Source: Bacteroidaceae bacterium (lineage in GTDB: Bacteria; Bacteroidota; Bacteroidia; Bacteroidales; Bacteroidaceae). Taken from it: DNA of 45,054 nucleotides. The notes under the pieces are model-generated. The model searched no databases. It was not told where the DNA came from and saw only the letters and a program-made list of their open reading frames with translations. Positions 38,984-45,054 of the stretch are shown piece after piece. The translations under genes and the position numbers were made by a program. Within the stretch, counting starts at the first letter, position 1; the number at the start of each line of letters is the position of its first letter. The stretch spans positions 1-45,054 of the forward strand of contig JAGBFX010000026.1 of NCBI GenBank assembly GCA_017936265.1. Reading direction: 5' to 3'.

Positions 38984-39014
38984 CAAAAATATCATAAAAG
39001 CATATAAAAACAAA
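38984..39014 (-). promoter_or_regulatory. Promoter of the SusCD/TlpA operon
   Basis: On the minus strand TTTG (39014-39011) and TATTTTTG (38991-38984) are separated by 19 bases. This matches the Bacteroidetes -33/-7 layout. Transcription would start near 38978, giving a leader of about 90 bases. Confidence 0.75.
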
Positions 39015-39157: not shown

Positions 39158-39206
39158 GAATGTTCTCACAACGGAATAATCCTTATTGTGAATTGCTCAA
39201 AATTGT
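39131..39206 (-). ncRNA. Putative tracrRNA of the type II-C CRISPR system
   Basis: The plus strand at 39185-39207 nearly copies the 5' half of the CRISPR repeat as read on the minus strand (ATTGTGAATTGCT then CAAAATTGTT). A minus-strand RNA would therefore pair with crRNA over about 22 positions, with a two-base bulge on the crRNA side. Downstream in the RNA the sequence AAGGATTATTCCGTTGTGA resembles the nexus of the S. pyogenes tracrRNA (AAGGCTAGTCCGTTATCA). The RNA then forms a final stem and T run at 39157-39131. Length is about 76 bases. It is divergent from cas9. Confidence 0.9.
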
Positions 39207-39210
39207 TCAG

Positions 39211-39218
39211 CAAATGTA
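39211..39218 (-). promoter_or_regulatory. -7 element of the tracrRNA
   Basis: TACATTTG on the minus strand matches TAnnTTTG and ends 4-5 bases before the anti-repeat. No standard -33 is seen. Its upstream region overlaps the cas9 promoter. Confidence 0.65.
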
Positions 39219-39235
39219 GAAATAAAAATCAGAAC

Positions 39236-39266
39236 TTGAAATATTATTAGAAAATATTTACCTTTG
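39236..39266 (+). promoter_or_regulatory. cas9 operon promoter
   Basis: TTG (39236-39238) and tacctttg (39259-39266) are 20 bases apart, fitting the Bacteroidetes consensus. The expected start is near 39273, leaving a leader of about 24 bases. Confidence 0.78.
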
Positions 39267-39296: not shown

Positions 39297-42200
39297 ATGA
39301 AAAAAATACTTGGTTTAGACTTGGGCGTAGGCAGTATAGGATGGGCATATGTACACGAAGCAGAAAACAGCAGTGAACAATCATCAATTGTCAAATTGGG
39401 AGTTCGAGTAGTTCCACTGACAGTTGATGAGCAGCAGAACTTTGAAAAAGGCAAGAGCATCACTACAAATGCAGACAGAGCACTAAAGAAAAGCATGCGT
39501 CGCAATTTGCAACGATATAAACTCAGGCGCGACAACCTTATAGATTGTCTTTTGAAGAACAAAATAATCTCTAATGAGACAATATTGAGCGAAAGTGGCA
39601 ATAATACTACTTTTGAGACATACCGTCTGCGCGCAAAAGCAGCGACAGAGATGGTATCACTTGAAGCTTTAGCAAGAATACTGCTTATGCTTAACAAGAA
39701 ACGCGGATATAAGAGCAACAGAAAAGCGAACAAGCAGGAAGACGGCACCATAATTGACGGAATGAGTATTGCCAAGGATTTATATGAGAATGACATTACA
39801 CCTGGACAATATGTATTAAAACGTTTAAACGAAAATAAGAGACATATCCCAGAGTTCTACAAATCGGACCTTCAAAAAGAGTTTGACAGAATATTCTTTT
39901 TTCAGCAGTCATTCTATCCGACAATTCTTACACAGGAGTTGTACACGGCAATTCTAGGCAAGAGCGGTAAAGCGACATATGCAATCCTCAGCAGCAACAA
40001 TATACCGGTTGCCGAGAATAAAGGAAAAGACAAGAATAGAACTGCATACGGTTGGAGAAACGATGCTGTCATCAAACAGCAACCAATCGAAACAGTTGCT
40101 TACGCATTAATGGAACTGAATGCAGCAATAAGCAACGGCAGCAATTACCTTGGCGCAATAGGAGACCGTAGCAAAGAACTATATTTCAACCGGATGACAG
40201 TAGGGCAGATGCTTATGAAGCGGTTAGCGGAGAACCCGAATGCAAGCCTCAAGAATATTGTTTATTACCGTCAAGACTATCTTGATGAGTTTGAGTGCAT
40301 TTGGGAGACACAAAGAAAATACCACAATGAATTGACCCAAGAACTCAAAAAGGAAATACGCGACATCATTATTTTCTACCAAAGGGAACTCAAGAGCAAG
40401 AAAAGTTCCATTAGCCTATGTGAATTTGAAAAAAGAGAAGTAGAGGTAAGCATTGACGGAACCACAAGAAAAAAGATTACCGGATGCAGAGTTTGCCCTA
40501 AATCCTCGCCACTTTTCCAGGAATTCAAGATTTGGCAAATGCTGAACAACATACGTGTCTGCGATACAGAGACCAATGAAACATGGCCTCTCGACATTGA
40601 GGAAAAAGATGTATTGTTCAAAGAGCTGAATATAAAGCAAAAGCTCAGCAAGAATGAGATTCTGAAGATATTATACCGCAACAGCAAGCATCTTGACCTG
40701 AACTACAAAGAGATTGAAGGCAATAGAACATTATTTGCATTAGTCAATGCCTGCCAGTCTATTATCGTTGCAACAGGACACGATGAATATCCGTTCTCCA
40801 AGATGAGAGCATCCGAAATCTACGAAATCATCCATAGAATATTCGGTGCAGTCGGTTTCAACACAGATTTCTTGCATTTTGACTCAAATTGCAAGAATCT
40901 TGAAGATGAGCCGATGTTCAAGCTTTGGCATCTATTATACTCATACACTGATGATAAATCAAAGACAGGAAACGAGAGTTTAATAAATAAAATCCGTGAA
41001 TTGACAAACATGGATGAGGAATGTGCGCGCATTCTTGCCAACATATCCTTCATGGATGATTACGGCAGTCTCTCCAGCAAAGCCATCAGGAAGATACTGC
41101 CACACATGCAGGAAGGCAATGAATATAGCGTTGCATGCATGTACGCCGGCTATAATCACTCACACTCGTTGACAAAGGAAGAACTGCTTAACAAGGTATA
41201 TGTTGATACTATTGAATTGTTACCACGCAACAGTCTACGGAATCCTGTAGTCGAGAAGATTCTCAATCAAATGATTAACGTGGTAAATGCCATAGTCAAA
41301 GAGTATGGCAAACCTGATGAAATACGCATAGAACTTGCACGTGAGCTAAAAAGCAATGCAAAAGAGCGCAAAAGAGCTACGGAAGCAATAAGCGAGGCCA
41401 ACAAGAAGAATGAAACTGTAAGAAAGATTCTCATAGAGAAGTTCGGCATAAAGAATCCAAGCAGAAACGATATAATAAGATACAGACTATATGAGGAACT
41501 TGAGAAAAACGGATATCACACGCTCTATTCTAACACATACATACCACAGGAAGAGCTATTTACCAACAGGTTCAATGTAGAACATATAATTCCGCAAGCA
41601 TGCATGTTTGATGACTCATTCTCCAACAAGACACTGGAAGCCATGGATATAAACATAGAAAAGGGCAAGGAGACAGCATACGACTACGTACTTGCCAAAT
41701 ATGGCAATGAGGGAATGGCTCAATATAAAGCACGCATAGATTATCTGTATAATGCAGGTGCAATAAGGAAAAGTAAGCGTGACAAGCTGTTGATGCAGGG
41801 CAAAGATATCCCTAATGGTTTCATAGAACGTGACCTGCGGGACACACAGTACATTGCACGCAAGGCGCATGAGATACTTGAGCGTCTTGTTCCGCATGTA
41901 ATATCCACGACAGGACAGATTACGGAGCGTCAGCGAGAAGACTGGCATCTTATTGATGTGATGCAGGAACTCAATTGGCACAAATATCATGAGCTTGGAC
42001 TGACCGAAACCATTGTTAACCGCGAGAACAAAGAGATACGCAGGATAAAAGAGTGGAGCAAGCGTAATGACCACCGCCACCATGCCATGGACGCGTTAAC
42101 AATTGCATATACAAAACGCAGCATCATACAGTATTTGAATAACCTGAATGCAAGAGATGATAAAAACGGGGAAATCTATGGAATAGAACGAAAAGAATTG

Positions 42201-43403: not shown

Positions 43404-44668
<1,265 letters not shown>

Positions 44669-44670
44669 AA

Positions 44671-44703
44671 ACAAAAAACCCAGCCAACCGCTGGGTTTTT
44701 TAT
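44671..44703. terminator. Bidirectional terminator between cas2 and the array
   Basis: cccagc (44679-44684) pairs with gctggg (44690-44695) around a five-base loop, with an A run before and a T run after. It can end cas2 transcription from the left and array transcription from the right. Confidence 0.88.
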
Positions 44704-44776
44704 TCGGACAACATCATTTTTTATTTCGCGTAGACACCTCATATCGTATTATAATACAATAAGATACAAACATTGA
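44704..44776. promoter_or_regulatory. AT-rich tract next to the CRISPR array, possible leader or trailer
   Basis: This 73-bp stretch has a perfect 12-bp palindrome gtattataatac at 44746-44757, twenty bases before repeat 1. The last 16 bases (aagatacaaacattga) loosely resemble the middle of the repeat. It could be the site where Cas1-Cas2 recognise the array end, but this is inference. Confidence 0.4.
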
Positions 44777-45054
44777 GATGTTTCCGATATTTCAAAGATA
44801 CAATTTTGAAAGCAATTCACAACTTGTTCAATCGTTGGGTTGCCGATATGTATGATGTTTCCGATATTTCAAAGATACAATTTTGAAAGCAATTCACAAC
44901 TTATCGCTGTTTGGCTCTGCTCGTCCTGCGATGTTTCCGATATTTCAAAGATACAATTTTGAAAGCAATTCACAACCAAAGGGGCTTGCTCATACTCTTG
45001 CGTGGAGATGTTTCCGATATTTCAAAGATACAATTTTGAAAGCAATTCACAACC
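44777..45054 (-). CRISPR. CRISPR array, type II-C, four repeats visible, open at window end
   Basis: Four identical 47-bp repeats lie at 44777-44823, 44854-44900, 44930-44976 and 45007-45053. Spacers are 44824-44853 (30 bp), 44901-44929 (29 bp) and 44977-45006 (30 bp); base 45054 begins the next. Read on the minus strand the repeat starts GTTGTGAATTGC, the usual type II orientation, so crRNAs are transcribed toward cas2. The anti-repeat at 39185-39207 confirms this. Each repeat holds TTG at its positions 2-4 and TATCTTTG at 24-31 (minus strand), a promoter layout with 19-bp spacing. Confidence 0.98.

Follow-up and report, generated by a model that had tools for sequence, protein, structure and literature searches.

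Locus and repeats

The window analysed here is a 45,054-nt stretch of Bacteroidaceae DNA, and its distal end is a type II-C CRISPR locus: cas9, cas1 and cas2 are followed by a 108-bp region and then by an array that runs to the contig end (Table 1). Assignment to type II-C follows from the adjoining cas9, cas1 (matching a type II model) and cas2, with no further reading frame before the array; neither csn2 nor cas4 was found in the cas9-cas1-cas2 operon. The array has four 47-nt repeats (44777-45053), identical over all 47 positions, for which the minus strand is the crRNA strand. Read on that strand, each repeat is GTTGTGAATTGCTTTCAAAATTGTATCTTTGAAATATCGGAAACATC, with TTG at positions 2-4, TATCTTTG at positions 24-31, and 19 nt between them. 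The consensus for the Bacteroidota housekeeping sigma factor is described as TAnnTTTG at -7 with TTG or TTTG at -33 (PMC7366714), and the repeats fit it. The initial annotation had claimed this -33/-7 layout for all four repeats, and both the coordinates and the TTG-N19-TATCTTTG spacing hold on the minus strand. Its further claim that the same layout occurs elsewhere is right for the operon with the SusC-type gene; the site upstream of cas9 (39236-39266) has a spacing of 20 rather than 19 nt. There are five matches to TTG-N19-TAnnTTTG in the window, i.e., the four repeats and the minus-strand site at 38984-39013, with a mean of 0.56 expected and at least five in 0 of 100 shuffles; because a single sequence accounts for all four repeats, only two of these matches are independent, and the window alone proves little.

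The array is interrupted by the contig end. The same repeat occurs in an array at the end of another contig of the same genome, C5, which has three further perfect copies plus a decayed repeat that is altered in its 5' half and reads GTTTTGAATCGTTTTCAAATTGTATCTTTGAAATATCGGAAACATC in crRNA sense; we take the two contigs to be neighbours. The decayed repeat is preceded by a 30-nt spacer-like stretch and a possible remnant of an older repeat with TTG-N18-TAGCTTTT (L002 1424-1530). On the cas2 side of the array, the leader-like region contains, at 44670-44704, an inverted repeat that has runs of A and T and may be a two-way terminator for the transcripts of the cas operon and the array.

Upstream of cas9, the anti-repeat of the predicted tracrRNA (39185-39206, minus strand) is complementary to repeat positions 1-24. 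Over the 66 loci scored (of 67), in a profile that includes a few spurious alignments, pairing covers positions 1-24 and drops to 0.23-0.38 at positions 27-31. Since pairing ends at about position 24, it leaves the -7 box unexplained. The cas9 and tracrRNA promoters point away from each other inside a 56-bp stretch (39211-39266).

Table 1. Features of the window that bear on the CRISPR locus, in order of position
Feature	Position	Strand	Details
Promoter TTG-N19-TATTTTTG	38984..39013	-	upstream of operon with SusC-type gene (SusC/RagA model)
Predicted tracrRNA	~39206-39131	-	approximate, predicted ends; anti-repeat 39185-39206, AAGGATTATTCCGTTGTG, GC hairpin with T run
tracrRNA promoter, -7 box TACATTTG	39211..39218	-	no exact TTG 18-20 nt upstream
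cas9 promoter TTG-N20-TACCTTTG	39236..39266	+	~30 nt before ATG at 39297
cas9, 1367 aa	39297..43400	+	TIGR01865, E 2e-157
cas1, type II	43404..44336	+	TIGR03639, E 5e-98
cas2	44336..44668	+	TIGR01573, E 5e-20
Leader-like region, cas2 to array	44669..44776	.	downstream in crRNA sense; presumed role
CRISPR repeat nearest cas2	44777..44823	-	-33 TTG 44820-44822, -7 TATCTTTG 44793-44800
Predicted start, repeat nearest cas2	near 44785-44788	-	predicted from consensus
CRISPR repeat	44854..44900	-	-33 TTG 44897-44899, -7 TATCTTTG 44870-44877
CRISPR repeat	44930..44976	-	-33 TTG 44973-44975, -7 TATCTTTG 44946-44953
CRISPR repeat, contig end	45007..45053	-	-33 TTG 45050-45052, -7 TATCTTTG 45023-45030

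The motif across Bacteroidota

How widespread is the motif in II-C repeats? For the order, 156 of 393 sampled genomes have a Cas9 match, and for the phylum 67 of 395; 80 and 60 Cas9 regions, respectively, were taken from these, and a further 80 came from the 528 relatives confirmed in named genomes. Arrays were found in 166 of the 219 loci examined (L002 included), one of which (L102) was dropped as false; the array finder misses some arrays, such as a long one in L278. Distinct repeats number 149 in the 165 arrays; 126 are at least 44 nt long, and 62 of these are left after removal of repeats within 8 edits of another. Two ways of orienting a repeat, by its resemblance to the anti-repeat and by homology, agree for 78 of 137, disagree for 4 and are undecided for 55. 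Orientation by the anti-repeat is good for long repeats. It fails for 36-nt repeats, which often match at the other end and were therefore excluded from the main count.

The initial annotation had raised the question of whether the motif is conserved above expectation in these repeats, and it is. Exact TAnnTTTG occurs on the crRNA strand, between position 17 and the repeat end, in 38 of the 62 non-redundant long Bacteroidota repeats, against about 2 expected (dinucleotide shuffles: mean 2.1, at most 6) and 1 on the opposite strand of that segment. The other 24 of the 62 have no exact match; five of the six fixed bases are present in 57, versus 24.7 in shuffles. The spacing between TTG and the motif peaks at 19 nt: among 37 repeats it is 18 in 7, 19 in 15, 20 in 6 and 21-23 in 9, with 36 of the 37 falling within 18-22. 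The six fixed positions of the motif carry 1.11-1.96 bits of information each, and the nine columns that follow carry -0.02 to 0.15 bits; shuffled 3' segments with the same anchoring give 0.17-0.93 bits. Among type I-like repeats of the same order (22 loci, 8 with arrays), TAnnTTTG was found in none of 8 distinct repeats on either strand.

The same motif is associated with tracrRNAs and with genes. Of 163 distinct tracrRNA anchors (one of which, L278, is not from Bacteroidota), 129 have TAnnTTTG at a distance of 18-40 nt before the end of the anti-repeat, compared with 5 after shuffling, and up to 84 of the 129 have TTG at 18-20. A looser anchor gives 130 of 165 for Bacteroidota. A matrix built from tracrRNA promoters alone recognises 49 of the 62 long repeats (shuffle p<0.05). 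In the same loci, TAnnTTTG occurs 2.1 times per kb upstream of genes, 0.54 times in shuffled sequence, and 0.26 and 0.43 times in coding sequence in sense and antisense, respectively. The gene-upstream rate is thus 3.9 times the shuffled and 8 times the coding-sense rate, and TTG is enriched at 18-20 nt. When divergent genes are included, the two strands of intergenic regions are about equal (2.1 sense versus 2.0 antisense per kb). In 267 tandem intergenic regions, the motif occurs 78 times in sense and 36 times in antisense, and the composite with TTG 26 and 8 times. There is support, from its sequence, strand and spacing, for reading the repeat motif as a Bacteroidota promoter that is conserved far above chance. 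We consider it very probable that the repeats carry a promoter of the host type, meaning that every spacer could be transcribed separately.

The TATCTTTG block could instead have been retained for integration by Cas1-Cas2, for RNA processing or through common descent, and resemble a promoter only in looks. Repeats do have common ancestry, and the motif and its flanks are equally retained in decayed first repeats and equally invariant inside arrays. In 64 decayed first repeats, the mismatch rate is 0.036 at the fixed motif positions, 0.030 after the motif and 0.288 at positions 1-18. Motif-specific constraint is rejected for these repeats: the entire 3' half is retained, not the -7 box in particular. 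A TTG at 17-22 is retained in 11 of 45 strongly decayed first repeats, with 6.2 expected, and is mostly lost. The decay fits better with a published pattern, in which mutations of the first II-C repeat fall mostly in the first 15 nt, possibly acting against extraneous crRNA (PMC12080349), than with constraint on the motif. Motif-specific constraint is also rejected inside arrays, with 0.55 changes per 1000 at the -7 box and 0.60 after it; TTG at positions 2-4 has 0 changes in 6354 in internal copies. Retention for another reason is nevertheless unlikely in our judgement. The nine bases after the block are almost completely turned over, and its distance from TTG in the repeats agrees with that at gene promoters of these loci. 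TracrRNAs are not repeats, yet they are preceded by the same motif, and relatives in another phylum, with Cas9s nested inside the Bacteroidota tree, lack its exact form.

Decay and internal variation, together with damaged boxes and 36-nt repeats, limit the claim of a working promoter in every repeat or array. By the reasoning of the initial annotation, it would speak against the promoter if close relatives with active arrays had lost the -7 motif from their repeats. Such loss is seen in part, in six loci that form a small clade and have 6-30 repeats per array: the damaged box is CATCTTTG in L232, L251, L254 and L257, TCTCTTTG in L246, and CGTCTTTG in L256. Among the 36-nt repeats of Bacteroidota II-C loci (L235, a truncated long repeat, was left out), exact TAnnTTTG occurs in 2 of 22 distinct repeats, for which orientation is unsure. 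Several others have GATCTTTG at positions 24-31, or end in TACATT or TAGATT (L168, L169, L171, L174 and L177); such ends resemble the end-of-repeat -10 box of Neisseria. The 36-nt repeats may use other promoters.

There is further variation among individual loci. In L053, L092, L093 and L096, CGATCTTTG is shifted to positions 32-41, close to the spacer, and transcripts might start at the spacer itself. In the L057 repeat the -7 box is doubled, with TATTTTTG and TATCTTTG separated by ten bases. The arrays of L231 and L270 are reversed relative to cas9, unlike most loci of their set.

Direction of transcription and relation to known systems

In 88 arrays with both ends readable (L079 was left out because its end is masked), the repeat that is upstream in crRNA sense is the more degenerate in 65, the two ends tie in 23, and the cas2-side repeat is the more degenerate in 0. 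In the genome studied here, the decayed repeat on C5 is likewise at the old end of the array, upstream in crRNA sense. Thus, new spacers seem to enter at the cas2 end, downstream of transcription. New spacers were shown by experiment to adjoin cas2 in R. anatipestifer (PMC6008519), and II-C systems in general are described as acquiring spacers at the last repeat, with a promoter in each repeat (PMC12080349). With the old end upstream and the leader downstream, a promoter in the leader cannot make the crRNAs of these arrays. Transcription from the leader would yield the strand opposite to the tracrRNA-pairing repeat, which already contradicts a leader-driven array. In R. anatipestifer, where the cas2-side leader was supposed to drive the array, promoters were predicted in the leader with the BDGP tool, and the authors reported that the repeats had none (PMC5006608). 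BDGP was trained on eukaryotic promoters. We consider a leader-driven array very improbable for the locus described here.

Alternatively, the array might be transcribed mainly by read-through from beyond its old end, with the repeat promoters weak or silent. On C5, a gene that looks phosphatase-like by eye is directed at the array, and no terminator-like stem was found in the intervening sequence; expression of the F. columnare array is very low, at eight reads (PMC8092290). However, a published survey reports Rho-independent terminators upstream of II-C arrays (PMC12080349), and read-through would not conserve a promoter within repeats. Read-through as the main source of crRNA is therefore improbable.

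If the repeats do act as promoters, the 47-nt repeat would consist of two modules. Positions 1-24 are complementary to the anti-repeat of the tracrRNA and include the -33 TTG, and positions 24-31 carry the -7 box TAnnTTTG, which would be used by RNA polymerase with the Bacteroidota housekeeping sigma factor. Transcription would start ~5 nt past the -7 box, near position 36, with each repeat driving the spacer below it. Overlapping transcripts would run toward cas2, and the leader palindrome may end them. As new spacers seem to enter downstream, at the cas2 end, the repeat would be a promoter that arrives with every new spacer. The initial annotation held that this arrangement makes crRNA 5' ends independent of processing. 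A start near position 36 speaks against that claim, because it would leave ~12 nt of repeat before the 30-nt spacer, requiring either trimming or a tolerated 5' extension.

In Neisseria meningitidis and Campylobacter jejuni, the -10 box is at the end of the repeat and transcription starts inside the spacer. Here, by contrast, the TAnnTTTG box is in the middle of the 47-nt repeat and a repeat tag of ~12 nt is predicted. Otherwise, these II-C systems resemble the locus described here in having cas9-cas1-cas2, in transcription of the array in the direction of its acquisition end, and in repeat-borne promoters, which here are predicted (PMC12080349, PMC5006608). The initial annotation had regarded the Bacteroidota promoter as an independent solution. 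This is disfavoured, since repeat promoters and last-repeat acquisition are described for II-C generally (PMC12080349); it is simpler to suppose that the layout is ancestral and that the promoter sequence within it is specific to the host.

There are closer parallels within Bacteroidota. TTG has been proposed as a repeat-encoded promoter in F. columnare, which has a 36-bp repeat and eight reads toward the leader (PMC8092290), and in F. psychrophilum, which has a 46-bp repeat and RNA-seq toward the leader (PMC10309648). Thus, the general idea of a promoter in each repeat is not new. Both systems share the phylum, the proposed repeat promoter and transcription toward the leader with the locus described here; unlike here, the accessible parts of these papers name only TTG for the repeats, and TAnnTTTG for cas9 alone (PMC8092290, PMC10309648). 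R. anatipestifer CRISPR1, likened here by its published description, has 47-bp repeats, 30-bp spacers, an anti-repeat upstream of cas9, a 107-bp leader with a palindrome, and new spacers beside cas2 (PMC5006608, PMC6008519). It differs in that its authors state that they found no repeat promoter (PMC5006608). For B. fragilis, the II-C leader could not be assigned, and the accessible portion of the paper does not name a repeat promoter (PMC5704556). A report of TAnnTTTG in II-C repeats was not found in the open-access literature searched, some of it accessible in part. The repeat promoter is probably a Bacteroidota version of a known II-C feature that has been suggested in part before. The present analysis contributes the complete -33/-7 box and a measure of how widely it occurs, together with a tracrRNA promoter that matches it and a contrast to the Fibrobacter phylum.

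Repeat promoters of this kind would have several implications. First, they would offer a reason for the 45-49 nt length of many Bacteroidota II-C repeats. Second, they would correct the published statement that there is no promoter in the 47-bp Riemerella repeats. Third, they would allow the 5' ends of crRNAs in many Bacteroidota to be predicted to the base. Fourth, they would make it testable whether transferred CRISPR arrays need to be re-tuned to the sigma factor of the host.

Comparison with the Fibrobacter phylum

One of the named Cas9 relatives is a Fibrobacter succinogenes MAG (L278). Among 167 genomes of its phylum, 22 have a Cas9 match, and DNA regions were taken from 13. Exact TAnnTTTG occurs in 0 of 7 repeats (L331, a near-copy with one base different, and L338, a 36-nt repeat, were left out) and 0 of 12 tracrRNAs scored in this phylum. 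The repeats retain the GTTGTGAATTG start without the exact motif. Six of the seven match TAnnTTTG at five of six fixed bases, a level that shuffles often reach, and the tracrRNA-trained matrix beats shuffles (p<0.05) in one of the seven. TATATT is present in all 12 tracrRNAs, and two further tracrRNAs read by eye agree. A clean swap of the -7 box for the host -10 is only partly seen in the repeats, with exact TATATT in 2 of 7.

In a FastTree tree of Cas9 with 171 rows, the 11 Fibrobacter-phylum rows need 7 label changes, and these Cas9s are nested at several places among those of Bacteroidota. Of six independent pairs on the tree, four or five have lost the motif on the Fibrobacter-phylum side and 0 show the reverse (sign test, p 0.06-0.13), such that the paired comparison is suggestive and not significant. 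Fisher's test, which ignores kinship, gives p 0.005 for 38/62 versus 0/6. By eye, the Fibrobacter-phylum repeats fall into about three families, with near-identical repeats beside far-apart Cas9s; hence, the tree gives an inflated impression of the amount of repeat data.

The sequences upstream of genes in the two groups of loci also differ. Upstream of genes in the Fibrobacter-phylum loci (13.7 kb), TATATT is present at 2.2 times and TAnnTTTG at 1.7 times the shuffled level, the latter at 13 sites, of which three have a TTG at 18-20. In the Bacteroidota loci, the corresponding values are 1.2 times for TATATT and 5.9 times for TAnnTTTG. The contrast in promoter habit is real, although on 13.7 kb it is not absolute. 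It is possible that the repeat has two parts with different histories, a tracrRNA-pairing half conserved across phyla and a promoter half that, like the tracrRNA promoter, is rewritten to suit the host sigma factor. We place this proposal just short of an even chance; we had held it to be even, and lowered it because TAnnTTTG is mildly enriched upstream of Fibrobacter-phylum genes. If true, sigma compatibility of the repeat would limit which arrays move between phyla.

Misbinned contigs are possible among the Fibrobacter-phylum loci. Five loci (L331, L335, L339, L340 and L343) have near-identical repeats of the Fibrobacter type (GTTGTGAATTGCTTTCAGATTTTCTAGTTTTACTAG...) with Cas9s from three far clades; cas9 seems to be exchanged while the array stays with the host.
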